DNA of 64,000 bases from Mesonia phycicola (GTDB lineage Bacteria; Bacteroidota; Bacteroidia; Flavobacteriales; Flavobacteriaceae). The position numbers were made by a program, and so were the translations under genes. This document shows positions 11,349-36,148 of this stretch, in pieces. Under the pieces are notes generated by a model. That model was not told the origin of the DNA. It was given only the letters and a program-made list of their open reading frames with translations, and ran no database searches. How positions within the stretch are numbered: position 1 is the stretch's first letter; each line of letters opens with the position of its first letter. The stretch spans positions 124,001-188,000 of the forward strand of contig NZ_FQYY01000003.1 of the NCBI RefSeq assembly GCF_900141885.1, in the 5' to 3' direction.

Positions 11349-14300
11349 TTAGTTTTTATTAATTGATAATTGAGTGTTTACATCATCAAAACTAATCTCC
11401 ACTCCATTATCTAACTCTTCTACTAGTTCGAGATTTGCAGTAAGAGTTTCGGTTTTTATATACTCAACATTATCTAGAACAGCGTCCTCGACTACTCCGT
11501 CCTTTTTAATTTTAATACTGATTTTGTCTGTTACTTCAAATCCAGAGTCTTTACGAAGGTTTTGTATTCTATTTACCAATTCTCTAGCAATACCTTCTTT
11601 CTTTAACTCATCATTAATGGTAACGTCTAGTGCAACTGTAAGTCCGGCATTACTTGCAACTAACCAACCCTCAATATCTTCTGAAGTAATTTCTACATCA
11701 TCGAGACGCAAAGTAGTAATTTTTCCATTAATTTCAATGTTAATTTCTCCATCTTGCTCAATAGCAGCAATATCTGCAGATTCCATCTTATTAACAGCTA
11801 CTACAACGTGTCTCATATCTTTCCCAAATTTAGGTCCTAGCGTTCTAAAATTAGGTTTGATATTTTTCACTAAAATACCTGAAGCATCATCAATCATTTC
11901 AATTTCTTTGACGTTTACCTCAGATTTTATTAAGTCTGCCACTTCTAGTATTTGGTCTTTCACTGTTGCATCTAAAACAGGAATCATAATACGTTGCAAT
12001 GGCTGACGAACTTTAATCATTTCTTTTTTACGTAGTGATAATACTAACGAAGAAATAATTTGTGCCATTTCCATTTTTCTCTCTAAAGATTTATCGACAA
12101 AAGATTCTTCTTTAACTGGAAAATCGGCCAAATGTACACTTTCAAAACTTTCTTTCTGTGTAGCTTTCGTTAAATCTTTGTAAAGTCTATCCATATAAAA
12201 TGGAGCAATTGGAGCTGCTAATTTTGTTACCGTTTCTAAACACGTATAAAGTGTTTGATAAGCAGAAATTTTATCTTGCTCATAATCTCCTTTCCAGAAT
12301 CGTCTTCTGCTTAAACGTACAAACCAGTTACTTACATTTTCTTGTAAAAATTCTGAAATTGCTCTAGCTGCACGTGTAGGCTCATAACTATTATAAAAAT
12401 CATCTACCTTACCAATAAGTGTATGTAATTCTGAAAGAATCCATCTATCAATTTCTGGTCTGTCTTCTAATTTCACATCATCTTCTGCATAAGTAAACTC
12501 ATCTATATTTGCATATAGAGAGAAGAATGAGTAGGTGTTATAAAGTGTACCAAAGAATTTTCTACGAACCTCAGCAATCCCTTCTATATCAAATTTTAGG
12601 TTATCCCAAGGGTTTGCGTTAGCAATCATGTACCAACGAGTAGCATCTGGACCAAAAGCTGCTAAAGTTTCAAAAGGATCTACAGCATTACCTAAACGTT
12701 TAGACATTTTTTGCCCGTGTTTATCTAACACCAATCCGTTAGAAACTACATTTTTATAAGCAACATCATCAAAAATCATAGTTGCAATTGCGTGAAGCGT
12801 ATAAAACCAACCACGTGTTTGGTCTACCCCTTCTGCTATAAAATCTGCTTTTTTATCTCCATTTTCTACTTGTTCTTTATTTTCAAACGGGTAATGCCAT
12901 TGTGCGTAAGGCATAGAACCAGAATCGAACCAAACATCAATTAAGTCTGACTCACGTTTCATTGGTTTTCCTTCTGAAGAAACTAAGGTAATTTTATCTA
13001 CTACATTTTTATGAAGATCTACCAGATTATAGTTTTCTTCACTCATATTGCCAACTTCAAAATCTGCAAAAACATCGGCCTTCATTAATCCGGCTTCTAC
13101 AGCTTTTTGCATTTCTTCTTTCAGTTCTGCAATTGAACCAATAATTTTTTCTTCTTTACCGTCTTCTGTTCTCCAGATTGGTAACGGAATTCCCCAGAAA
13201 CGAGAACGAGAAAGGTTCCAATCGTTTGCATTAGCTAACCAGTTACCAAAACGCCCTTCTCCAGTAGATTTTGGTTTCCAGTTAATACCCATATTCAACT
13301 CGTGCATACGGTCTTTTACATCTGTAACTTTTATAAACCAAGAATCTAATGGGTAATACAAAATTGGCTTGTCTGTACGCCAGCAATTTGGATAACTGTG
13401 TACATATTTCTCTACATTAAAAGCTCTATTTTCTTCTTTTAATTTGATGGCAATTTCTACATCTACAGATTTTTCTGGTGTATCTTCTGCATCGTAATAT
13501 TCATTTTTCACATATTTACCGGCAAACTCTCCCATTTCTGGTCTAAACTTACCTTGAAGATCTACTAACGGTACTAAATTTCCGTTTTCGTCTTCTACCA
13601 ACATTGGTGGCACCTCTGGCTTTGCTTGTTTTGCTACCAAAGCATCGTCTGCCCCAAAAGTTGGAGCGGTATGTACAATACCTGTACCGTCTTCTGTGGT
13701 TACAAAGTCTCCAGAAATTACTCTAAAAGCATTTTCTGGATTATTATGTGGTTTTGCGTATGGCAATAATTGCTCGTAAGTAATATCTACTAAATCTTTT
13801 CCTTTAAAATCATTTAATATTAAATACGGTATTTTTTTATCACCCTGAGTGTAAGCTTTTAAAGCTTCTTCATTTTCTACTAAATGAAATTTCTTACCAA
13901 AGTTTTTAGCAACTAAATTTTTAGCCAGTACAATATTAATTGGCTCAAAAGTGTATTGGTTATAAGTTTTTACCAATACATAATCAATTTTTGGTCCAAC
14001 AGTTAATGCTGTGTTACTTGGTAACGTCCAAGGAGTAGTGGTCCAGGCTATAAAATAAACTGGCTCATCTTGAATTTCATCAATCTTACCTAAAACTGAA
14101 CTATTAAAAGTTTCATTTTTTACTGCTTTAAATTGTGCAGTTACAGTAGTATCTGTTACATCTTGATAAGTACCTGGTTGGTTAAGCTCGTGAGAACTTA
14201 AACCTGTACCTGCTTTTGGTGAGTATGGCTGAATGGTGTAACCTTTGTAGATTAAACCTTTTTTATAAATTTCTGAAAGTAGCCACCATACTGTTTCCAT

Positions 14301-14771
14301 GTATTTAGACTTGTAAGTGATATAAGGCTCTTCCATATTTACCCAATATCCCATCTGCTCAGTTAAATTAGACCAAACATCTGTATAACGCATTACAGCA
14401 TTTTTACAAGCTTCGTTATATTCTTCTACAGATATTTTTTTACCAATATCTTCTTTGGTAATCCCTAATTCTTTTTCTACACCTAACTCTACAGGAAGTC
14501 CGTGAGTATCCCAACCTGCTTTACGTTTTACTTGAAAACCTTTTTGAGTTTTGTAGCGGCAAAAAATATCTTTAATACTTCTAGCCATTACGTGATGAAT
14601 CCCAGGTAAACCGTTGGCAGAAGGTGGCCCTTCAAAAAACACATACGGTTCTTTACCTTCACGGGTAGTTATACTTTTATCAAAAATATCTTCATTCTTC
14701 CAAAACTCTAGAATTTCTTCTGCTACTTTAGGAAGGTCAAGTGCTTTATATTCAGTAAACTTCTTACTCAT
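11349..14771 (-). CDS. ileS: Isoleucyl-tRNA synthetase, long type
   Basis: 1140 residues. The class I signature appears as PSANGLPGIHHVMAR (HIGH equivalent near residues 57-60) and GQKMSKRLGN (KMSKS loop near residue 688). An editing domain (TTTPWTLPSNTALTV) lies between, and an anticodon-binding domain follows. The C-terminus lacks the cysteine zinc motif of the short bacterial type, so this looks like the long, eukaryote-like IleS type; that subtype is often less sensitive to mupirocin, which is only inference here. It charges tRNA-Ile with isoleucine. First gene of ileS-traR. Confidence 0.97.
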   Translation of the reverse strand: MSKKFTEYKALDLPKVAEEILEFWKNEDIFDKSITTREGKEPYVFFEGPPSANGLPGIHHVMARSIKDIFCRYKTQKGFQVKRKAGWDTHGLPVELGVEKELGITKEDIGKKISVEEYNEACKNAVMRYTDVWSNLTEQMGYWVNMEEPYITYKSKYMETVWWLLSEIYKKGLIYKGYTIQPYSPKAGTGLSSHELNQPGTYQDVTDTTVTAQFKAVKNETFNSSVLGKIDEIQDEPVYFIAWTTTPWTLPSNTALTVGPKIDYVLVKTYNQYTFEPINIVLAKNLVAKNFGKKFHLVENEEALKAYTQGDKKIPYLILNDFKGKDLVDITYEQLLPYAKPHNNPENAFRVISGDFVTTEDGTGIVHTAPTFGADDALVAKQAKPEVPPMLVEDENGNLVPLVDLQGKFRPEMGEFAGKYVKNEYYDAEDTPEKSVDVEIAIKLKEENRAFNVEKYVHSYPNCWRTDKPILYYPLDSWFIKVTDVKDRMHELNMGINWKPKSTGEGRFGNWLANANDWNLSRSRFWGIPLPIWRTEDGKEEKIIGSIAELKEEMQKAVEAGLMKADVFADFEVGNMSEENYNLVDLHKNVVDKITLVSSEGKPMKRESDLIDVWFDSGSMPYAQWHYPFENKEQVENGDKKADFIAEGVDQTRGWFYTLHAIATMIFDDVAYKNVVSNGLVLDKHGQKMSKRLGNAVDPFETLAAFGPDATRWYMIANANPWDNLKFDIEGIAEVRRKFFGTLYNTYSFFSLYANIDEFTYAEDDVKLEDRPEIDRWILSELHTLIGKVDDFYNSYEPTRAARAISEFLQENVSNWFVRLSRRRFWKGDYEQDKISAYQTLYTCLETVTKLAAPIAPFYMDRLYKDLTKATQKESFESVHLADFPVKEESFVDKSLERKMEMAQIISSLVLSLRKKEMIKVRQPLQRIMIPVLDATVKDQILEVADLIKSEVNVKEIEMIDDASGILVKNIKPNFRTLGPKFGKDMRHVVVAVNKMESADIAAIEQDGEINIEINGKITTLRLDDVEITSEDIEGWLVASNAGLTVALDVTINDELKKEGIARELVNRIQNLRKDSGFEVTDKISIKIKKDGVVEDAVLDNVEYIKTETLTANLELVEELDNGVEISFDDVNTQLSINKN

Positions 14772-27363: not shown

Positions 27364-27816
27364 TTATTTTACTTCTTCAAACACAATTTCTTTTTCTGTT
27401 TTTGCTATGGTTGCTAAATAAAAAGGCTGTGTCATTACCATTGTAGCTAAACCATCTGGATGAGTAATTTTATACTTAAAAGTAACTTTATTTTTTGCTT
27501 CTACGCTTTCTACAATACTTATAGCGTGACCGCCAGTGGTTCTTTGTTTATCAAAAATTGCTAATAACATTTGCTTGTTAAAATCAATAGATATAAACGA
27601 GGTTGCTGCACTTTTTTCATTAATATTAATTTTCTCGAAAAGCGCATTCCAATCTTGTTGATTGTCTATAACCGTTTGTTGTTCTTCTATTCCTTCTGCT
27701 CCATCTCCGTATAAATCTCCTTTAGAAATAAGATTAATGGTGATATTTTCATTGTTTTTTGCTGAATTACAACTAAACATTACAATAGCAAGACAGATAT
27801 AAACTAGATTTTTCAT
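27364..27816 (-). CDS. PrcB-like C-terminal domain lipoprotein
   Basis: 150 residues. The signal ends in a lipobox, VMFSC (Cys16), so a lipid-anchored protein is expected. The core NKQMLLAIFDKQRTTGGHAI (about 85-104) is the PrcB C-terminal domain signature, first noted with the PrtP protease of Treponema. No protease gene is adjacent. It is cotranscribed with pdeM, four bases away, but a shared function is not evident. Confidence 0.72.
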   Translation of the reverse strand: MKNLVYICLAIVMFSCNSAKNNENITINLISKGDLYGDGAEGIEEQQTVIDNQQDWNALFEKININEKSAATSFISIDFNKQMLLAIFDKQRTTGGHAISIVESVEAKNKVTFKYKITHPDGLATMVMTQPFYLATIAKTEKEIVFEEVK

Positions 27817-27889
27817 TTTTTAAATTTTGATTAGAAAGGCTAAGATAATTCATAGATGCTAAATACTGGTTATTCTTAACAAGCTTTTT

Positions 27890-27988
27890 GCGTTAGGGAT
27901 AGCAGTGAAAATCCCACAATAAGTTGTAGCGACAGCGAAAACTTATGAGGAATTGCAACGGATAGCCTGACCCGGTAGGGAAACGCCC
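27890..27988 (+). repeat. Element B, copy 1 (divergent)
   Basis: Closing arms GCGTT (27890-27894) and AACGC (27982-27986) pair. The 5-prime conserved box is TAGGGATAGCAG and the 3-prime box GGATAGCCTGACCC followed by GGTAGGG. The central arms ATAAGTT and AACTTAT pair. Same layout as the copies at 35514 and 45570 although the paired bases differ. Together with element A it fills the 406-base gap 27817-28222, which holds no gene. Confidence 0.65.
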
Positions 27989-28006
27989 AAGTAAATTTAT
28001 TTTTAT

Positions 28007-28130
28007 CCTTCCGAGTTCTTTTTCTAACACTTCAGAACCCACCTTCCCTAAATTAGGGAAGGAACATTTTATAAAGCTCCTCTCCTTAGAAAAGGAGAGG
28101 TGGCAAAACTTGTTTTGGCGGAGAGGTTTG
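28007..28130 (+). repeat. Element A, copy 1
   Basis: Contains CCTTCCCTAA-A-TTAGGGAAGG (28042-28062), CCTCTCCTT with AAGGAGAGG (28079-28100), a GGTGG that pairs back to CCACC before the first hairpin, and AAAACTTGTTTTGGCGGAGAGG at its end. Ends about 90 bases from the helicase stop codon. Confidence 0.8.
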
Positions 28131-28222
28131 AATCCCTATAAATTAGAAGGTAAAACTGTAGGGTTATCTATAAAAGATTGAGGTCGTTTAGAGCTTTTTT
28201 AAGGTTCCTGCCTGTGCAGGAA

Positions 28223-30727
28223 TTATTTTTCGAGTTGTTTAAGCATACGCTGAATGCGATCTTCTAATTTTTCTGAAGAGAGCTTTTCTCGTAATCGATC
28301 GGTGATGATGGGAAATGAAAATGGAGTTGGTTTTTGACAGGATTTCCAAACGATTTTTTGCTGATGAATTCGCTCTAATGCCAACCGTAATCTGCCTTCT
28401 TCTAATTGATGCTCAAAGGTTTCTCGGAAAGCTTGTTGAAATAATAAATTATCATCTTCATAATCTCGAAATACATCAAACAACAATTGAGAGCTTGACT
28501 GTAAGTGTTTACTTTTAATCAATTTATTGGGATAACCGGTAAAAACCAAGCCAGCAACCACGGCAATATCTCTAAATTTTCGGCGAGCCATTTCGGTCGC
28601 GTTTAGGCTTTTATACAAATCGTCCATTAAAAATTCTGCGGAAAACAAATTGTTGTCTAAAACTTGTTGCATATCAATCTCTTGGTCTGAAAGCAGCTCG
28701 AAACCATAATCGTTAAACGCAATGCTGAAAGAAATTGGCGACAACAAACTAATGCGATACGCCAATAAACTTCCCAAAGCTTCGTGCACAAAACGCCCTT
28801 CAAACGGATAAAAAATAGCGTGATAACCTTCACGAGTTTTAAAAGTTTCGATAAGAAATTCATCTTGTTTTGGGATGATCGACTCTAATTGTTGTCGTTC
28901 TAAAATAGGTTGAAGTGCTGTTAATTCGGGAGACTTCTCGACAGAGCTTGTCTTGAGCGAAGACGAAAGGCTCGAAGTGACAGAAAGACTTTCTGCGGCT
29001 TCGTATAATTCTTCCCGAAGTAATTCACTCATTTGTGCAGAAAAGGTCATTCGGCCGCCCATCCAACTTGGCACTTTAGCGGTTTTCTTTTTAGACTTGC
29101 GTACCAATACCTGCATTCCTTTAATTCTCGAAAGTTCTAGGTTTCTGCCAGCAAACATGAACACGTCTCCTGGTTTTAATTTAGAAATAAACCACTCTTC
29201 TACCGTACCAATATAACCGCCTTTTATATATTTTACAGTAAGCATAGCGTCACTAACAATTGTCCCGATCTGCAAACGATGACGCATCGCAACACCACGA
29301 TGGTTGACTTTAAATTTACCGTCGTCTTCAATTTCTACCTTTTTATATTCGTCGTAGGTTTGCAAACTTTGGCTTCCTTTCGTGATAAAATTTAAACACC
29401 AACGCCACTCGTCTTCGGTTAAACCTTGAAAGCAGAATGTCGATTTAATTTCAGGGTAAATTTCATTGGGGTAAAATCCGTCGGAAACCGCTAAAGTCGT
29501 TAAATACTGTACCAAAACGTCGAAACTTTGCAGGTACGGAATACGATCTTCTACCGCTTTTTTCTCAACCGCTTTTTGTAGTGCGGCCGCTTCAATAAGT
29601 TCCATAGCGTGCGTGGGCAAGAAGTAAATTCGGCTTGCTTTTCCCGGTTGGTGACCACTTCTCCCGGCGCGTTGTAAAAAACGAGCGACGCCTTTTGGTC
29701 CTCCAATTTGAATAATGGTTTCTACCGGAGCAAAATCTACTCCTAAATCTAAACTTGAGGTGCAAATAACTGCTTTTAGACTTTCGTTTCTAATCGCTTG
29801 CTCTACCCAAAGTCGCGTTTCTTTGTTGATGCTCCCGTGATGCATTGCCACTTCTCCGGCAAATTCGGGATACTTATTCATTAATTTTTGAAACCACAAT
29901 TCACATTGCGAACGCGTATTGGTAAAAATTAATGTAGTTTTTGAATTGTTTAAAATCGGAATTATTTCATCTAACAAATGCAAACCCAAATGTCCACGCC
30001 AAGGAAATTTTTCCATTGACTCCGGAATAATCGACTTGACTTCTATTTGCTTTTGAATATTCGCTTTGATTAATGTTGAATTTTGAAGTGCTTCACCTTC
30101 GGCTCCCAACAAAACTTCTTGCGCCTGCGGAAGATTACCGATAGTGGCCGAAATACCCCAAATTTTTAAATTTTTTGAAACGGTTTTTAAGCGAGAAAGT
30201 GCTAATTCTGTTTGAACGCCACGTTTACTCCCTAGCAACTCGTGCCACTCATCGACGACAATCGCATTTAGATTTTTAAAAAGTTTCGGGTAGTTTTTTG
30301 AAGAAAGCAATAAATGTAAACTCTCTGGCGTAGTAATTAACAAATCGGGCATCGACTTTTTTTGCGCCGCGCGTTCTTTTTGAGAAGTATCGCCGGTGCG
30401 AATCCCAACAGTTAATCCCGAGTTGGTTTCTTCTGCAAAACGAGTAGCCGCTTGCGCAATTTCAACAGAAAGTGCTCGAAGCGGCGTGATCCAAATGGCT
30501 TTTAGGCCTTTTTGAGGTTTGGTTTTATAATTGGGATTTTGCTTTAGGTATTCTAAAACAATCGGCACCCAAAGCGCGTAAGTTTTTCCGCTTCCAGTAG
30601 GTGCGTTTAAGAGTCCGTTTTTCCCTTTGAGATAAGCATCCCAAGTTTTTTTCTGAAAAGGAAAGGGCTTCCAACCTTGCTGGGTAAACCAATTTTCTGC
30701 AATGGTTAAAAGCTCTTTTTTGTTCAT
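28223..30727 (-). CDS. Ligase-associated Lhr-like DEXH-box DNA helicase
   Basis: 834 residues, usual for this group. Motif I is NAPTGSGKT (about 39-47), motif II VDEWHELLGSKRG, motif III SATIG, and motif VI QRAGRSGH. The C-terminal DEAD-associated winged-helix region and SWMGGRMTF follow. These enzymes are 3-prime to 5-prime single-strand translocases of the Lhr-core type. Residues about 581-600 (SVTSSLSSSLKTSSVEKSPE) are low-complexity and are encoded by an inserted repeat (28929-28984). GC content looks well above that of neighbouring core genes. Forms the repair cluster with pdeM, the ligase and the exonuclease. Confidence 0.93.
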   Translation of the reverse strand: MNKKELLTIAENWFTQQGWKPFPFQKKTWDAYLKGKNGLLNAPTGSGKTYALWVPIVLEYLKQNPNYKTKPQKGLKAIWITPLRALSVEIAQAATRFAEETNSGLTVGIRTGDTSQKERAAQKKSMPDLLITTPESLHLLLSSKNYPKLFKNLNAIVVDEWHELLGSKRGVQTELALSRLKTVSKNLKIWGISATIGNLPQAQEVLLGAEGEALQNSTLIKANIQKQIEVKSIIPESMEKFPWRGHLGLHLLDEIIPILNNSKTTLIFTNTRSQCELWFQKLMNKYPEFAGEVAMHHGSINKETRLWVEQAIRNESLKAVICTSSLDLGVDFAPVETIIQIGGPKGVARFLQRAGRSGHQPGKASRIYFLPTHAMELIEAAALQKAVEKKAVEDRIPYLQSFDVLVQYLTTLAVSDGFYPNEIYPEIKSTFCFQGLTEDEWRWCLNFITKGSQSLQTYDEYKKVEIEDDGKFKVNHRGVAMRHRLQIGTIVSDAMLTVKYIKGGYIGTVEEWFISKLKPGDVFMFAGRNLELSRIKGMQVLVRKSKKKTAKVPSWMGGRMTFSAQMSELLREELYEAAESLSVTSSLSSSLKTSSVEKSPELTALQPILERQQLESIIPKQDEFLIETFKTREGYHAIFYPFEGRFVHEALGSLLAYRISLLSPISFSIAFNDYGFELLSDQEIDMQQVLDNNLFSAEFLMDDLYKSLNATEMARRKFRDIAVVAGLVFTGYPNKLIKSKHLQSSSQLLFDVFRDYEDDNLLFQQAFRETFEHQLEEGRLRLALERIHQQKIVWKSCQKPTPFSFPIITDRLREKLSSEKLEDRIQRMLKQLEK
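28929..28984. repeat. Palindromic repeat inserted in frame within the helicase gene
   Basis: Reads ACTTCTCGACAGAGCTTG, then a GTCTTGAGCGAAGAC hairpin, then GGCTCGAAGTGACAG. The ends ACTTC and GAAGT are inverted. The arrangement resembles the common flavobacterial intergenic repeat with TTCGA...TCGAA ends. It keeps the reading frame and adds about 18-20 Ser/Thr-rich residues. Confidence 0.55.
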
Positions 30728-30761
30728 CTTGTTTATTACTTTACTTCAGAATCTGTGTTTA

Positions 30762-30872
30762 CCCTTCCGTCATTCCTACGGAATGCCACCTTCCCTAAAT
30801 TAGGGAAGGAACTTTAGAAGTTCCTCTCCTTTTAAAGGAGAGGTGGCAAAACTTGTTTTGACGGAGAGGTTT
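30762..30872 (+). repeat. Element A, copy 2 (most complete)
   Basis: Outer arms CCGTC and GACGG pair. Inside lie CATTCC-TAC-GGAATG (30771-30785), a GCCACC/GGTGGC stem enclosing CCTTCCCTAAATTAGGGAAGG-type and CCTCTCCTTTTAAAGGAGAGG-type hairpins, and AAAACTTGTTTT. Its last base touches the DUF559 gene stop codon (30873-30875). Confidence 0.85.
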
Positions 30873-31235
30873 CTATTCAAAATTATCTTCTATTTCTTTT
30901 AATACAGACGGTAAAAAATCAAAAACCATTTTATTTTCAAAACGTAAAACTTTAAATCCTAGCTCCTCTAATCTTTTATCCCTTTTCCTATCTTTCTCTT
31001 CAGCAGTTGCATTTTTATGAACTTCACCATCTAATTCAATAATCAATTTTTCTTGAGCGCAATAAAAGTCTACAATGAAATTTTCAATGCTATGTTGTCT
31101 TCTGAATTTTCTTCCTTTCAATTGTTTTCTCTGCAAATGCTTCCAAAGAAAAGCTTCCGCAGGAGTTAAGTTTTCCCTCAATTCTTTTCGGAAAGATTCT
31201 AAATATTTTCTGTTATGAATTGGTTTATTTTTCAT
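30873..31235 (-). CDS. DUF559 endonuclease-domain protein (VSR/PD-(D/E)XK-like)
   Basis: 120 residues, full length for DUF559. The pattern NLTPAEAFLWKHLQRKQLKG, then KFRRQHSIENFIVDFYC and LIIELDGEVH, is the family core; the latter two segments hold the predicted catalytic Asp and Glu-x-Asp of a PD-(D/E)XK/Vsr-like nuclease. No methylase gene is nearby. Element A copies flank it tightly: one ends at its stop codon and another begins 14 bases before its start. Low GC, unlike the helicase and ligase genes on either side. A single-strand or repeat-directed nuclease role is inference only. Confidence 0.85.
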   Translation of the reverse strand: MKNKPIHNRKYLESFRKELRENLTPAEAFLWKHLQRKQLKGRKFRRQHSIENFIVDFYCAQEKLIIELDGEVHKNATAEEKDRKRDKRLEELGFKVLRFENKMVFDFLPSVLKEIEDNFE

Positions 31236-31248
31236 TTTAGCTATTTGA

Positions 31249-31411
31249 ACCTTTCCGTCATTCCAACGGAATGTTACCTTTCCTTAATATTTACCCTTCC
31301 GAATTTTTCTTATCAGAAAAATCCACCTTCCTTAAATTAGGGAAGGATCATTTTTTTTGCTCCCCTCCTTTTCAAGGAGGGGAAAACTTCACTTGTGAAG
31401 TTGGGGTGGTT
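31249..31411 (+). repeat. Element A, copy 3 (compound)
   Basis: Begins with one truncated 5-prime unit (CATTCC-AAC-GGAATG) and restarts at about 31293 with a second, whose first hairpin is ATTTTTCTTATCAGAAAAAT. Then come CCTTCCTTAAATTAGGGAAGG, CCCCTCCTTTTCAAGGAGGGG and a variant end, AACTTCACTTGTGAAGTT, GGGGTGG. The end reaches the stop codon of the CBM9-like lipoprotein gene. Confidence 0.75.
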
Positions 31412-32230
31412 TTACTCTTCTAAATGTAAAGTACCAAAAATATTAGCATCTTTCCACCCTTGGTTTTTATCTACTCCAGGAACATAGACAGAGCCAAAAA
31501 AGTTCTCACGTTCTTTACTGCTATCGTTGTCGCAATATGCCAATGCAAAACCTACATTTTTACCCGCGGAAAGTTTTACAGGTTCTACACTATTATTTTC
31601 ATCTTGATAGGTGTCTGGATAAATTTTTACTTTTAACTCCCAAACTGTTGTATTTCCTTCTGTTTTATGAGCAGATTTCACATGGTCATTATATAAATGT
31701 GGTTCTTTATCTGGACCAAAATCTACCACATTACCATCTAGTGCTACGTGATAAGCAAATGCGTTATGACCGTATTGGTGCTCTCCTCCAGAGTTATCTT
31801 CATCTATAAATACTTCTACGCAATCATCATCCCACCAAGTTTTAAAAGGATCTTTATACTGATCTATTAAAATATCATCTTGAATTTCTACTAATAAATA
31901 AATAGCTTCTTCATTCCAAGTAAGTTTATATTTACCTTGAAAATCTTCTTTGGTATAATCGTCACCTACCCAATTTTGGTCAAGTTGGTACCATTCTAAA
32001 TTTTGCCAAACAGTATCGTTTGCAACTCCATCAATTGCTGGCGCACTCTGAGCTTTTGAGACACTTCTTAGTTGGTGATTTTCTTTTTCTTGTTTAGTCT
32101 CTGAAGTAACTTCTTTTACCTCATACACTTCTTCCTGTTTTGGTTTTTCTGAAGTAGTTTCTTGTTTTTCTTCTTGTTTACAAGCAAAAAGCAAACTCAC
32201 CAAAACTGCCGAATACAATATTTTTTTCAT
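31412..32230 (-). CDS. CBM9-like (DOMON-type) carbohydrate-binding lipoprotein
   Basis: 272 residues. The lipobox is LLFAC (Cys17), followed by KQEEKQE, a charged tail typical of surface-exported Bacteroidetes lipoproteins. After a Glu/Lys-rich linker, the CBM9-like domain spans about 62-270: APAIDGVANDTVWQN, LTWNEEAIYLLVEIQDD, WWDDDCVEVFIDEDN and FGTLHLEE. Such domains bind sugars or ligands at the cell surface. It interrupts the repair cluster and has low GC like the host genome. A link to DNA repair is not expected. Confidence 0.85.
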   Translation of the reverse strand: MKKILYSAVLVSLLFACKQEEKQETTSEKPKQEEVYEVKEVTSETKQEKENHQLRSVSKAQSAPAIDGVANDTVWQNLEWYQLDQNWVGDDYTKEDFQGKYKLTWNEEAIYLLVEIQDDILIDQYKDPFKTWWDDDCVEVFIDEDNSGGEHQYGHNAFAYHVALDGNVVDFGPDKEPHLYNDHVKSAHKTEGNTTVWELKVKIYPDTYQDENNSVEPVKLSAGKNVGFALAYCDNDSSKERENFFGSVYVPGVDKNQGWKDANIFGTLHLEE

Positions 32231-32304
32231 TTATATATTTATTTTATTAAAGTCTTAAAAGTAAGTATTTTCAAGGGTTTAGTTAGAATTTAGGTGAATG
32301 ATTT

Positions 32305-32427
32305 TACCCTCCCGTCTTCTTTCGCTATCGCTTCAGAAGCCACCTTCCCCAAATTAGGGAAGGAACTTTTTAAGTTCCCCTCCTTAAAAAGGAGAGGTGG
32401 CAAAACCTGTTTTGGCGGTGAGGTTTC
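32305..32427 (+). repeat. Element A, copy 4
   Basis: The first hairpin is CTTCT...AGAAG, with different bases but the same place as CATTCC/GGAATG in copy 2. Then GCCACC, a CCTTCCCCAAATTAGGGAAGG-like hairpin, CCTCCTT/AAGGAG, GGTGGC and AAAACCTGTTTT. Its end overlaps the ligase stop codon (32426-32428). Confidence 0.8.
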
Positions 32428-34021
32428 ATTTCGGAATTAATGCTTTTAAATCTTCTAATGTATTGGCTTCTTCAATTTTTTTGTCTTTTCGCCAACGTAA
32501 AATTCGAGGAAAACGGGTAGCGACTCCACTTTTATGTCGGCTCGATTCAGCAATTCCTTCAAAAGCAATTTCAAACACGTGATGTGGCGTTACACTTCGT
32601 ACCGGACCAAAACGTTCTAGCGTATTTTTCTTGATCCACGCGTCTACTTTTCGAAATTCTGCATCTGTAAGTCCGGAATAGGCTTTTGCAAAGGTTACCA
32701 ATTCTTCTTTCTCATTGTCCCAAAGCCCGAAGGTGTAATCGGTAAATAAATTACTTCGCCTTCCGTGGCCACGCATCGCGTAGGTTAACACCGCATCGAT
32801 GGTAAGCGGGTCGACTTTCCATTTCCACCAATCACCTTTTTTTCTTCCTACGAGGTAAGGAGAATCCCAACGCTTCAGCATTAATCCTTCCGATTTTACT
32901 TCACGTGATCGCTCCCGTTCTTTAGCGGCTTCCTCCCAAGTTTGAAAAGAAATGGTTGATGATAAATGTAGCGGAATCTCTTCCGAAGCCACTTCCGTAA
33001 AAAGTTGTTCTAAAATTTCTCGTCTTTTTTGATAAGCTTTTTCTCGAATATCTTCGCCTTTCCATTCTAAAATATCGTAAGCTTTTAAAATGACCGGCGT
33101 TTTTACTAAAAGTTTTTTGGTAATGTTCTTTCGGCCGATTCGGGTTTGTAGATCTTTAAACGTACCGATTTCATTCTTCGGAAAAGGTAAAATCTCTCCG
33201 TCTATCACCGTCCCGTCGGGAATAAGATTGATAAATTTTTCAAATTCTGGGTATTTATCGGTCACCAATTCTTCCCCTCTACTCCACACAAACAATTCTC
33301 CGTTTCTAATAATTACTTGCGAACGAATACCATCCCATTTATGCTCGGCTGCCCATTCTTTTACATCTCCCAAGCTTTGCGGTTCGCCTTTGACCGCATA
33401 AGCCAAATAAAATGGATAAGGTTTAGAGAGGTAATCTTCTGGATTTTCTTCAAGTACCAAATCGGTAAACGTGGTGGTTGCAGGGTCCCAATTTCCCATC
33501 AATTTATAGGCGAGAATATCTTCATCTATTTCAGTGGCTTTTGATAAAGCACGCGTCATTAATTTCTGACTTACACCAATTCTAAAACTACCGGTAATGA
33601 GTTTAGTGAATACAAAACGTTCGTAATAATTTAAACTGAACCAATTTTCGTACAAATACTCTTTCTTTTCTTCTTCTGAACGAGCTTTTAACTCTATAAT
33701 TTCTTGAAGAAACTGATGTAAACTTTTCTCTGAAGATTCTTCTGAAGGCGGAATTACTAAAGCAATCGTTTCTGCCAAATCGCCCACAATGTGATACGAC
33801 TCTTCAAACAACCACATCGGAATTTTAGAAAACTCTGAAGCCCATTCTCTCATTAATGTGGTATTTACAGGTCTTGGTGGGCGACGATGAGAAAGAATAG
33901 CAATGGTCCACACTTTATCTTTATCGGTTGCAATTTTAAAGTAATATACAAGCGCCTCAACTTTTAGCGTGGTTTTGTTGGTGCTATCTAAAGTACGTAT
34001 AAGTTCTGCAAATTGCTTCAT
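32426..34021 (-). CDS. ATP-dependent DNA ligase of the ligase-associated repair cluster
   Basis: 531 residues. An N-terminal helical domain (1-200) is followed by the nucleotidyltransferase domain with EHKWDGIRSQ, where Lys228 is the adenylated residue, then DGEILPF, SEGLMLKRWDSPY and GDWWKWK as motifs III, IV and V, and an OB domain at the end. It seals DNA nicks with ATP, separate from the NAD-dependent replicative ligase. GC content looks high. The stop codon lies in the end of an element A copy. Clustered with the exonuclease upstream. Confidence 0.94.
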   Translation of the reverse strand: MKQFAELIRTLDSTNKTTLKVEALVYYFKIATDKDKVWTIAILSHRRPPRPVNTTLMREWASEFSKIPMWLFEESYHIVGDLAETIALVIPPSEESSEKSLHQFLQEIIELKARSEEEKKEYLYENWFSLNYYERFVFTKLITGSFRIGVSQKLMTRALSKATEIDEDILAYKLMGNWDPATTTFTDLVLEENPEDYLSKPYPFYLAYAVKGEPQSLGDVKEWAAEHKWDGIRSQVIIRNGELFVWSRGEELVTDKYPEFEKFINLIPDGTVIDGEILPFPKNEIGTFKDLQTRIGRKNITKKLLVKTPVILKAYDILEWKGEDIREKAYQKRREILEQLFTEVASEEIPLHLSSTISFQTWEEAAKERERSREVKSEGLMLKRWDSPYLVGRKKGDWWKWKVDPLTIDAVLTYAMRGHGRRSNLFTDYTFGLWDNEKEELVTFAKAYSGLTDAEFRKVDAWIKKNTLERFGPVRSVTPHHVFEIAFEGIAESSRHKSGVATRFPRILRWRKDKKIEEANTLEDLKALIPK

Positions 34022-34033
34022 TTTGTTTATTTT

Positions 34034-34147
34034 ACCCTTCCGTCATTCCTTCGGAATGCCACCTTCCCTATTTTAGAGAAGGAACTCTTTTAAACACCTC
34101 TCCTTACTAAGAAGAGATATTAAAACAAGTTTTAACGGAGTGATTTT
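34034..34147 (+). repeat. Element A, copy 5 (degraded)
   Basis: Has the intact CCGTCATTCC-TTC-GGAATGCCACC start, but its later hairpins have decayed (CCTTCCCTATTTTAGAGAAGG, CTCCTTACTAAGAAGAG) and it lacks GGTGGC. The AAAACAAGTTTT arm and CGGAG end remain. It fills the space between ligase and exonuclease genes. Confidence 0.7.
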
Positions 34148-34160
34148 ATTTAAAAATTTT

Positions 34161-35174
34161 TTAGTCCTTTTCTTTGCTCGTTTGCTCGGCATTTTCTTCT
34201 TCATATTGCGTTTGCTCGGTTCTGGCATCGTAACCCTGTTCTGCTAAAAAGCGAGAAAAAATATCGGTATAACCGTGCGTACAAATTACTTTTTCTGCTC
34301 CTGTTGCTTTAATAGAAGTAAGCAAACCTTGCCAATCACAATGATCAGACAAGACAAAACCCTTATCTATAGCTCGGCGACGGCGCGCACCACGAAACGT
34401 CATCCAGCCACTGGCAGATGCTGTTACATAAGGTACCATTTTTTTAATCCACGGTGATCCGTGTGTGCTTGGTGGTGCAATCACAATATTACCTTTGATG
34501 TCTTCTTTTTTAGTATCTCTTGTAATTTTTTGGGTTGGTGGCAAGTCTGCAATTTCTCTAATCACCTCTGTCATATTCTCAACCGCGCCGTGCGTATAAA
34601 TTTTACCAATAGAAGTGTCTAAATGTTTTAAAAGACGTTGCGCTTTCCCTAAAGAGTATCCAAACAAAATGGAAGTTCTACCATCTTCTTTATTTTGTTG
34701 CCACCACGTATTGATATCATGAAAAACCTGTTGCTGCGGCACCCATTTAAAGGCCGGTAAGCCAAAAGTACACTCGGTAATAAAAGTATGGCATTTCACC
34801 ACCTCATACGGAACGGCCAAGCCATCTTCTTCAGTTTTATAATCGCCAGTGAACACCCAAACCTCTCCTTTATGTTCTACTCTAATTTGTGACGAACCAA
34901 TTATATGACCAGCAGGATGAAGTGAAAATTTGACTCCGTTAATGGTGAAAGTTTCGTTCCACGCTTTACCAGCTACCACAATATCACCTAACCGATGTTT
35001 GATAATTGGCACGTTGGTGTGATGCGTAATGTATTGTTGATGTCCCCACCGAGAATGATCTGCATGACCGTGCGAGATAATGGCTTTTTTAACCGGTTTC
35101 CATGGGTCTAGATACACATCGGCGGCTTCACAATATATTCCATTTTGGTTAAATGCGAGTAATGGTGTTTTCAT
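34161..35174 (-). CDS. Ligase-associated DNA exonuclease, metallo-beta-lactamase/beta-CASP fold
   Basis: 337 residues from the ATG at 35172-35174 (MKTPLLAF); a TTG eight codons earlier is less likely. The metal motif is ISHGHADHSRWG, with FTGDYKTEEDG and GYSLGKAQRL (beta-CASP) after it, and LSDHCDWQGLL and CTHG near the end. It matches the SNM1-like exonuclease of the ligase-associated damage response set. First gene of the cluster on this strand, with the other members downstream. The tail (YEEENAEQTSKEKD) is acidic and likely disordered. Confidence 0.92.
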   Translation of the reverse strand: MKTPLLAFNQNGIYCEAADVYLDPWKPVKKAIISHGHADHSRWGHQQYITHHTNVPIIKHRLGDIVVAGKAWNETFTINGVKFSLHPAGHIIGSSQIRVEHKGEVWVFTGDYKTEEDGLAVPYEVVKCHTFITECTFGLPAFKWVPQQQVFHDINTWWQQNKEDGRTSILFGYSLGKAQRLLKHLDTSIGKIYTHGAVENMTEVIREIADLPPTQKITRDTKKEDIKGNIVIAPPSTHGSPWIKKMVPYVTASASGWMTFRGARRRRAIDKGFVLSDHCDWQGLLTSIKATGAEKVICTHGYTDIFSRFLAEQGYDARTEQTQYEEENAEQTSKEKD

Positions 35175-35324
35175 GTAACTCAAGTTAGTAAAAAGCAATT
35201 TTGAAATTTGGTATTTGCCGAAATCTTAGCGGAAATTTAAGAGGTGTTGGGTTGAATTTAACTAATTGATTTGGTTTGGGGAGTTTACAGAAGTAATTGT
35301 TTTTGTTGAAGTAAGCATGATGAG

Positions 35325-35345
35325 ATGCTGAATCGAGTTCAGCAT
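35325..35345. repeat. Short perfect inverted repeat (element C)
   Basis: ATGCTGAA-TCGAG-TTCAGCAT, within GAGATGCTGAATCGAG. A decayed second copy (GAGATGCTGAATCAAG) lies at about 35453. This unit resembles a common flavobacterial intergenic hairpin. It is one of two repeat families filling the gene-free stretch 35199-35665. Confidence 0.5.
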
Positions 35346-35513
35346 GACGAAGTAGAAGTGAAACTAAAAATGAAGTTGGCTAGAAATATTAATAATTGAT
35401 TGGAGGTGTTGAATTAGAGAAAAACAAGTATTGTACAGAATGAAGCTCGAGGTGAGATGCTGAATCAAGTTAAGTATTACATTGGGGTTGGAAGGTGGTG
35501 ACAACTTTTATTT

Positions 35514-35628
35514 GCGTGAGGGATAGTAGCGGCATCCTTTTTTGCTTTATATAAGTGACTTTTCGGCTTTGATAAAAATGACAAGCAAAAAAGATATAGC
35601 GAATAGCCCGACCCAACGGGACACGCCC
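35514..35628 (+). repeat. Element B, copy 2 (reference)
   Basis: Closing arms GCGTG (35514-35518) and CACGC (35622-35626) pair. The first conserved box is AGGGATAGTAGCGGCATCC. The long central stem pairs CTTTTTTGCTT with AAGCAAAAAAG, the second box is GAATAGCCCGACCC, and a CCC-AAC-GGG miniature hairpin precedes the closing arm. It ends ten bases before the GyrI-like gene promoter. Confidence 0.75.
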
Positions 35629-35637
35629 TTAAAATTG

Positions 35638-35645
35638 TATCTTTG
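35638..35645 (+). promoter_or_regulatory. TAnnTTTG -7 element of the GyrI-like gene
   Basis: TATCTTTG, 20 bases before the ATG at 35666 and just downstream of an element B copy. Confidence 0.55.
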
Positions 35646-35665
35646 ATGGAAAGATTAGAATTGAA

Positions 35666-36148
35666 ATGCAAGTAGAAATAGTAAATATAGAGTCGAAATT
35701 ACTAGCTGGGTTAAAAACTAAAATGAGTTTTAGTAATAATAAAACTGAGGAATTATGGTCTGCATTAATGCCAAAAAAACATTTAGTAAAGGCTAAAAAT
35801 AATGACTTATTTTCTGTAGAAATTTATCGTGACGTAAGCTTTTTTAAAGCTTTTGATCCTACAAAAATATTTGAGAAATGGGCGGCAGTTGAAATTGATT
35901 CTGCTGAAAATATACCAAATGATTTTGAGGCTTTACAAATTTCTAAAGGATTGTATGCAAAATTTAATTATAAAGGAAAAGCTAGTGAAGCAGCTGCTTT
36001 TTACGGAAAAATTTTTGGTGGATGGCTACCAAATTCTGATTTTGTATTAGCTAACCGGCCACATTTTGCGGTGATGGGTGAAAAATACAAAGGAGATAGT
36101 GAAGATTCTGAAGAGGTAATTTATATTCCTATAGAGAAAAAATCTTAA
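35666..36148 (+). CDS. GyrI-like/AraC effector-binding domain protein
   Basis: 160 residues with no helix-turn-helix. The single domain (VEIVNIESKLLAGLKTKMSF at the start, GLYAKFNYKG and FYGKIFGGWLPNSDFVLANR in the second half) fits the GyrI-like small-molecule binding fold. Such stand-alone domains bind drugs or cyclopropanated compounds; the ligand here is unknown. Its last four bases overlap the convergent recO gene end. Confidence 0.8.
   Translation: MQVEIVNIESKLLAGLKTKMSFSNNKTEELWSALMPKKHLVKAKNNDLFSVEIYRDVSFFKAFDPTKIFEKWAAVEIDSAENIPNDFEALQISKGLYAKFNYKGKASEAAAFYGKIFGGWLPNSDFVLANRPHFAVMGEKYKGDSEDSEEVIYIPIEKKS

Follow-up and report, generated by a model that had tools for sequence, protein, structure and literature searches.

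A small nuclease gene of the DUF559 family and the hairpin repeats that surround it in Mesonia phycicola probably belong together as the components of a single family of mobile elements, with DUF559 as its dedicated nuclease. Direct support comes from the co-occurrence of gene and repeats, from their layout, from the existence of empty and filled alleles, from the boundaries of the unit in Pontibacter, and from the lack of any match to an HUH transposase in the genome itself; we infer that DUF559 moves the hairpin elements. The locus lies in a window of 64,000 nucleotides, the whole stretch of DNA analysed, to which all window coordinates refer. Its features are the following.

28003-28128, minus strand: complete hairpin element downstream of Lhr, absent from the original prediction
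28223-30727, minus strand: Lhr helicase, host gene beside the insertion (Pfam, synteny)
30759-30871, minus strand: complete hairpin element, 1 base off the DUF559 stop codon
30873-31235, minus strand: DUF559 (PF04480) nuclease gene, 120 aa (Pfam, E 5.8e-34)
31248-31283, minus strand: half element made up of the right-end hairpin and the outer arm, upstream of DUF559 at 12 bases from the ATG
31291-31411, minus strand: complete hairpin element upstream of DUF559
31412-32230, minus strand: CBM9-like gene with an element copy on each side (Pfam)
32304-32425, minus strand: complete hairpin element between the ligase and CBM9 genes
32426-34021, minus strand: ATP-dependent DNA ligase, host gene on the other side of the ancestral junction (Pfam, synteny)
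34032-34145, minus strand: complete hairpin element between the gene of a 345-aa exonuclease-like protein and the ligase gene

At this locus a multi-hairpin element, 113-126 nt long, is present in five complete copies and as one half copy. All of them are on the minus strand in the same orientation as the genes, and the DUF559 gene is located between complete elements, not inside one. The original prediction had seen this element, termed element A, touching the stop codon of a DUF559 gene, beginning again 14 bases before its start codon, and recurring in three further copies of one orientation. The gene is genuine, the stop-codon copy and the three others are in place, together with the extra one downstream of Lhr, and the sequence before the start codon is the half copy (12 bases from the ATG, 14 to its first C). 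Folded as single-stranded DNA, the stop-codon copy reaches -29.5 kcal/mol, with a z of -7.1 against shuffles, the other four complete copies having z values of -3.65 to -4.16. By BLAST (E<=0.01) one copy finds nine places in its own genome, six of them inside a 6.1-kb stretch of the window. A covariance model (R1), made only from copies of the window locus in the own and sister genomes, gives 15 matches at about ten distinct places, five of which belong to the window locus; the DNA pattern CCYYYCCYTNNNNARGGRRRGG was too narrow for use in this genome. We take the hairpin arm CCTCCTT to resemble an anti-Shine-Dalgarno sequence.

Element A was also considered as an RNA family and rejected: Rfam (E<=1, window 27500-35700) matches Flavo-1 only, not element A. 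The Flavo-1 matches stand at both ends of the element cluster, at 35506-35617 (61.5 bits) and 27885-27976 (35.7 bits, where the gathering score is 42), and Flavo-1-like sequence is also found downstream of Lhr in several sister genomes. A second palindromic repeat, of the GATGCTGAATCGAGTTCAGCATGAC type, occurs at 35321-35348 and 35453-35480, just upstream of the exonuclease-like gene. The operon that the elements have entered (28223-35198) encodes the Lhr helicase, the ATP-dependent ligase and the 345-aa protein; the latter has no Pfam match, and we take it to be an exonuclease of the metallo-beta-lactamase type. At two contig ends of the same genome, L009 (C25:1-1546) and L008 (end of C27), there are larger elements with similar hairpin ends and another interior, possibly further non-autonomous forms.

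Comparison of empty and filled sites in related strains, which had been proposed as a check, finds both states at the ligase-Lhr junction, in the leucyl-tRNA synthetase (LeuRS) and in the isoleucyl-tRNA synthetase (IleRS). Among the 16 genomes of the genus searched, that of the window (G000) included, 14 gave a full-length Lhr match and had their junctions compared. Six carry DUF559 with elements between ligase and Lhr (G000, G002, G008, G010, G012 and G014), and eight have no DUF559 there: the junction measures only 2-24 nt in G001, G003, G004, G005 and G013, it is 109 nt long and free of any element in G006, it holds a gene-less element in G015, and a remnant in G011. At the exonuclease-ligase junction an element is present in G000, G012 and G014 and, in part, in G010; in the other ten genomes this junction has 12-62 nt and no element (12-14 nt in G003, G004 and G008). 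A DUF559 element may be pictured as having entered the ligase-Lhr junction, with gene-less copies then spreading along the same operon. In G012 the CBM9 gene is missing at the equivalent place, and a single chimeric element is left, composed of the left half of one neighbour copy and the right half of the other, as would be expected from recombination between direct repeats.

The association extends well beyond this genus. Of 70 DUF559 loci, 42 have a repeat that the two 200-nt flanks of the gene share, as do 10 of the 311 other genes tested there (odds ratio 45, p 1.1e-27); this p value, like the others given here, is only a guide because related sequences are not independent. The threshold, a local score of at least 20, was one of four tried; at 18, 25 and 30 the counts become 43, 34 and 29 of the 70, against 16, 8 and 6 of the 311. 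By flank-repeat score, DUF559 comes first among the genes at its locus in 49 of 69 cases (14.9 expected), and 42 of the 70 loci beat all 60 null pairs of random positions drawn from their own locus. The repeats of the 42 positive loci mostly come with hairpins. Their hosts are Bacteroidota and, singly or in pairs, Acidobacteriota, Planctomycetota, Chloroflexota, Thermodesulfobacteriota, Nitrospirota and LCP-89. The 28 loci without a shared flank repeat at this threshold include all those testable stand-alone loci that belong to Cyanobacteriota (L104, L117), to Verrucomicrobiota (L101) or to Calditrichota (L080).

These loci come from a named set of 80, listed out of 561 confirmed relatives, ten having been left out of the test (six embedded in long open reading frames, four with short flanks); five loci with broken frames (L074, L081, L085, L097, L103) were retained, and all five are negative. 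The scan used five DUF559 rows, an alignment of 14 being too diverse for it, so that the named sample leans towards the subfamily of the window. A second, order-wide set, drawn with the profile of another DUF559 subfamily and sharing no 80-nt stretch with the 80 named loci, has shared repeats at 18 of 24 loci against 6 of 480 null window pairs; it comprised 30 loci, of which five embedded ones and the window (L256) were left out, and one member (L232) is identical with locus L027, the protein of which went into that profile. The claim that nuclease and hairpin repeats belong together is thus upheld far above chance, in two sets of loci and, as we shall see, across genomes. Some genomes do hold many hairpins (123 in G070), which would favour mere adjacency by chance in repeat-rich DNA; this explanation is ruled out by two within-locus controls, by the second set of loci and by a control within the same reading frames, described below, and we give it practically no credence.

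In layout, the hairpins have arms that are mostly pyrimidine on their 5' side. At 20 of the 70 loci the exact CCCCTCCTT hairpin is found on either side of the gene, and seven loci have it on both; the group formed by Nitrospira, Desulfobacterales, Chloroflexota and LCP has hairpins of the CCCCCTTT and AAAGGGGG types. Pontibacter shows the gene inside one unit, which at L061 reads AACCACCCCTAA[hairpin]AGCT ... gene ... AGCT[hairpin]TTAGGGGTGGTT. Four Pontibacter loci (L060, L061, L062 and L065) have in common a block of about 490-540 bp (489-536 nt in pairwise comparison), running from hairpin end to hairpin end, and their flanks, taken up to 5 kb, have no mutual match at E<=1e-10 except for hairpin matches of about 50 nt. 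Between two other loci, L051 and L056, it is the flanks that match, and the unit is reversed.

At the level of whole genomes, model R1 finds element A in 12 of 60 (own and relatives). It is not equally common with and without the nuclease, since strong DUF559 matches, here those above 40 bits, are present in 11 of these 12 genomes and in 10 of the 48 others. The narrower idea that DUF559 is tied to element A itself needs correction: 10 of the 21 genomes with strong DUF559 lack element A in the strict sense, because this element does not occur outside the genus and a small number of relatives. Across the phylum, the exact hairpin CCCCTCCTT-N2..5-AAGGAGGGG occurs in 42 of 296 genomes, 37 of which have strong DUF559, against 89 of the 254 others (odds ratio 13.7, p 6.6e-11; the cut-off for strong, E<=1e-10, was chosen after inspection of the table, and the two-by-two counts were tallied by hand). 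Genomes with strong DUF559 hold 444 of the 456 copies; 89 of these 126 genomes do without the exact hairpin. The reversed control pattern is found once per strand in G322 and is absent from the rest of the 296 genomes.

A mover of a known kind might be sought elsewhere in these genomes: a RAYT (TnpA-REP) transposase of the HUH type would displace the repeats, with DUF559 as a passenger. The layout is similar to that of REPINs with their RAYT, and the corresponding family, PF01797, has a match in 24 of the 60 genomes, among them the element-bearing G002, G011, G012, G014, G015, G022, G028 and G042, several of these matches being weak. No PF01797 match is found, however, in G000, in the element-bearing G008 and G010, or in G004 (which has weak element matches only), at completeness values of 90-99.95%. 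In G000, G008 and G010 (the last 90% complete), none of which matches PF01797, it is therefore unlikely that the elements are moved by a resident HUH transposase. Moreover, the association was measured with DUF559 itself, and we hold the passenger reading to be very improbable.

The long open frames met in the search for DUF559 are host proteins with DUF559 inside. In LeuRS, 9 of 16 genomes have an empty allele (spacing 51 aa), five carry DUF559 and two a different palindromic insert. This other insert, in frame and in the same loop, is seen in the LeuRS of the own genome (L140, G000:C27), where it is read as the peptide ...HSELDSESHP... at what is the DUF559 site in sister genomes, and in that of G008 (L143). 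The DUF559 inserts of LeuRS form two well-supported tree groups (G002, G014 and G015; G005 and G011) with different ends, so that insertion into this loop probably happened more than once. In G014 a class I tRNA synthetase, which we read as IleRS, has its DUF559 insert in a frame of 1294 aa, and IleRS lacks the insert in G000 (window 11349-14771), G002, G004, G008 and G012 (1142-1156 aa), and in a partial sequence of G010. Empty alleles of both synthetases thus occur in sister genomes. About 11 target codons are missing at the IleRS insertion of G014, which means that this was not a clean transposition; no target-site duplication was seen at the few sites closely examined, and IleRS shows target loss instead.

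A scan of the phylum gave 40 further loci with DUF559 in longer frames. Pfam identifies 15 embedding proteins as MetH, HsdR, LeuRS (two sites), RecG, HsdM, methylmalonyl-CoA mutase, an Eco57I-type methylase, IleRS and HisD. In 13 of the 15 (7 of 8 in the phylum-scan set, 6 of 7 in the earlier set), host domains are recognized both before and after DUF559; HsdM has a host domain only on the N side, and HisD carries DUF559 as an addition at its C terminus. None of the 15 has an intein domain (Pfam, E<=1e-5), and the inserts stay open in frame with their host. Hairpins lie on both sides of the embedded DUF559 in 23 of 33 cases, against 7 of 495 window pairs from the same reading frames (seven of the 40 loci were left out: L192 and L230, which are partial matches, and five with hosts under 600 aa). 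The 5' arms are at least 85% pyrimidine in 91% of 55 hairpins of embedded DUF559, and in 16% of 73 controls. In a tree of 91 DUF559 rows the embedded copies need about seven changes, at least four of them forced by well-supported branches; many forks of this tree are not resolved because it rests on 118 columns (seven rows were left out, and stops inside the matched stretch would be X). HsdR insertions of a cyanobacterium and of Bacteroidota (L108, L111, L198, L200 and L203) are at the same place, just before Walker A, which tolerance of the loop or choice of the site could explain.

These embedded copies bear on a more prosaic view of the locus, in which the hairpins would be no more than transcription terminators or insulators of the operon, and DUF559 a repair enzyme like Vsr that belongs with the Lhr-ligase operon. 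DUF559 does sit in that operon in Salegentibacter (L040), Luteirhabdus (L041), Salinimicrobium (L050) and G022 (L017). Further, the Caulobacter DUF559 protein VsrA is reported to cause an SOS response when a methyltransferase is missing, a context of methylation and DNA damage (PMC12907096); this fits with damage to DNA by the DUF559 family. Yet the Lhr operon is nearby in only 5 of 88 loci checked, control genes of the same loci have no paired repeats in 301 of 311 cases, and the same hairpins are also found on either side of DUF559 within unrelated coding genes, a setting in which a terminator would serve no purpose. We regard this view as largely refuted, and as a shade less credible even than the HUH passenger reading.

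The fold of the protein agrees with the original prediction that DUF559 is no RAYT: the match is to DUF559, the fold is of Vsr type, and the own genome is without PF01797. The AlphaFold model of the window protein has a pLDDT of 91.9, and its best solved matches in Foldseek are 3hrl (a putative endonuclease-like protein), 3r3p, which is the homing endonuclease I-Bth0305I (E 1.6e-4, probability 1.00), and 1vsr, Vsr itself (E 0.036, probability 1.00). In Pfam the protein matches DUF559, with MTES_1575 below the cut-off, and a profile of YcjD is reported to detect Vsr (PMC1189080). Sixteen columns are invariant in 40 DUF559 sequences, and they include E27, D56, E67 and D69, the putative catalytic residues. 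In the available parts of the literature on DUF559, COG2852, PF04480 and ycjD, where coverage stops short of preprints and most subscription journals, we found no tie to such repeats; one DUF559 paper mentions CRISPR repeats (PMC8861277).

Since the nearest fold of known function is that of a homing endonuclease, one may ask whether DUF559 is a homing-type invader of palindromic repeats that spread by other means, cutting at the hairpins and being copied into or beside them by recombination. The genus locus, where the gene stands between complete elements, is in keeping with this idea, as are hairpins of E. coli in strains without detectable ycjD. Against it, the empty alleles, nine of LeuRS and six of IleRS, are free of any insert and hairpins are met there only with the DUF559 insert, the Pontibacter copies have hairpins and gene as one common unit, and the exact hairpin is found in only 5 of 170 genomes without strong DUF559 (G065, G296, G316, G326 and G340). 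We therefore consider such an invader rather unlikely, while keeping it as the main rival, with the LeuRS, IleRS and Pontibacter data against it and the E. coli data partly in its favour.

E. coli K-12 MG1655 has a DUF559 gene, ycjD (b1289), which is followed by a G-rich hairpin. The 44-nt ycjD repeat occurs at 17-21 places in MG1655 records, among the matches listed, and in 5375 of 5426 E. coli genomes (E<=1e-3), at 1 to 29 places with a median of 16; ycjD itself is found in 3365 of the 5426 at megablast sensitivity. About 2000 genomes thus keep the hairpin without detectable ycjD, so that in this species the repeat either outlives the gene or never depended on it. Sixty evenly drawn E. coli records have the repeat at 1 to 28 places. 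One E. coli genome stood among 14 control genomes; it has no DUF559 match, and we take it to be a strain without ycjD. In two strains, chosen because the region search matched one side only, efflux genes adjoin fabI or sapF at the place that ycjD has in K-12. In the strains read, ycjD and the efflux operon are mutually exclusive in the sapF-fabI region (L190, L262/L263), as is also described, for the efflux operon eefRABCD, in PMC12817139.

Returning to the reading that we prefer, that of a mobile element with its own nuclease, we picture it in the following way. The autonomous form would be about 0.5 kb long; bounded at each end by an outer inverted repeat, it would hold the DUF559 gene between a first, pyrimidine-armed hairpin and a second one. 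Non-autonomous copies, of which element A would be one, would retain both ends without the gene. DUF559 may recognize the structured ends, extruded as cruciforms or as single-stranded hairpins, and break the DNA, whereupon host repair would excise the element or copy it to a new place; the nuclease would serve its own element in cis and the gene-less copies in trans. Certain lineages appear to have adapted to in-frame insertion, their ends staying open and the nuclease presumably being made as a domain of the host protein. Several findings weigh against this picture: the lack of a target-site duplication and the loss of target codons in IleRS, the position of the window gene between complete elements, the 28 loci with no shared flank repeat, the 89 strong-DUF559 genomes lacking the exact hairpin and, as regards strict dependence, the E. 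coli hairpins in genomes where ycjD is not detected. The interpretation given in the original prediction is, overall, partly supported. A wider proposition would make of all this a new class of bacterial mobile elements: a hairpin-ended unit of about 0.5 kb with a Vsr-like DUF559 as its sole gene, present in several phyla, moving from gene to gene, leaving gene-less offspring, in some lineages inserting in frame into essential enzymes whose host would then produce the nuclease as part of its own protein, and the source of many orphan G-rich palindromes, that of ycjD included. We would give this proposition an even chance.

Pfam still lists the widespread DUF559 as a domain of unknown function, and the role proposed here can be tested. 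If it is true, the REP/RAYT way of life has been adopted with a second, unrelated type of nuclease, and the origin of palindromic repeats in genomes without an HUH transposase is explained. In-frame inserts in the single-copy LeuRS and IleRS, in which no splicing domain was found, offer a way of studying how a selfish element persists within an essential protein, and the presence of ycjD beside a hairpin repeat in E. coli K-12 brings the question within reach of experiment.

How do these elements compare with known systems? They resemble REPs and REPINs with their RAYT in that a small nuclease gene lies between palindromic repeats, with paired inverted hairpins and gene-less copies in the genome. 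A RAYT, however, is an HUH-Y1 enzyme (PF01797), whereas the DUF559 nuclease is like Vsr and the EDxHD enzymes, EDxHD being the name of the nuclease group that includes I-Bth0305I. The DUF559 hairpins also differ from REPs and REPINs by their pyrimidine arms, their other ends and their insertion in frame into essential genes; a guide tetranucleotide at the foot of the hairpin is described for RAYT and REP (PMC6006769). With I-Bth0305I and other EDxHD homing endonucleases they share the fold and the presence/absence alleles inside conserved genes. By contrast with homing endonucleases of inteins or introns, the 15 embedding proteins have no intein domain, and, unlike I-Bth0305I, the element has hairpin ends of its own and gene-less copies. 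Palindromic DNA in frame inside protein genes is also the mark of the Rickettsia palindromic elements (RPE) and of PARCEL repeats, neither of which, to our knowledge, has a nuclease gene. Here the autonomous form encodes one; in the PARCEL paper the word nuclease is absent (PMC2996958). The E. coli ycjD locus is like that of the window in joining a DUF559 gene to a G-rich hairpin, and unlike it in that the hairpins also occur without detectable ycjD. Finally, MITEs and the DDE families have terminal inverted repeats and autonomous as well as non-autonomous copies. The DUF559 elements have these too, but they differ in that DUF559 is the only gene of the unit, that no target-site duplication was found at the few sites closely examined and that hairpins stand at both ends.
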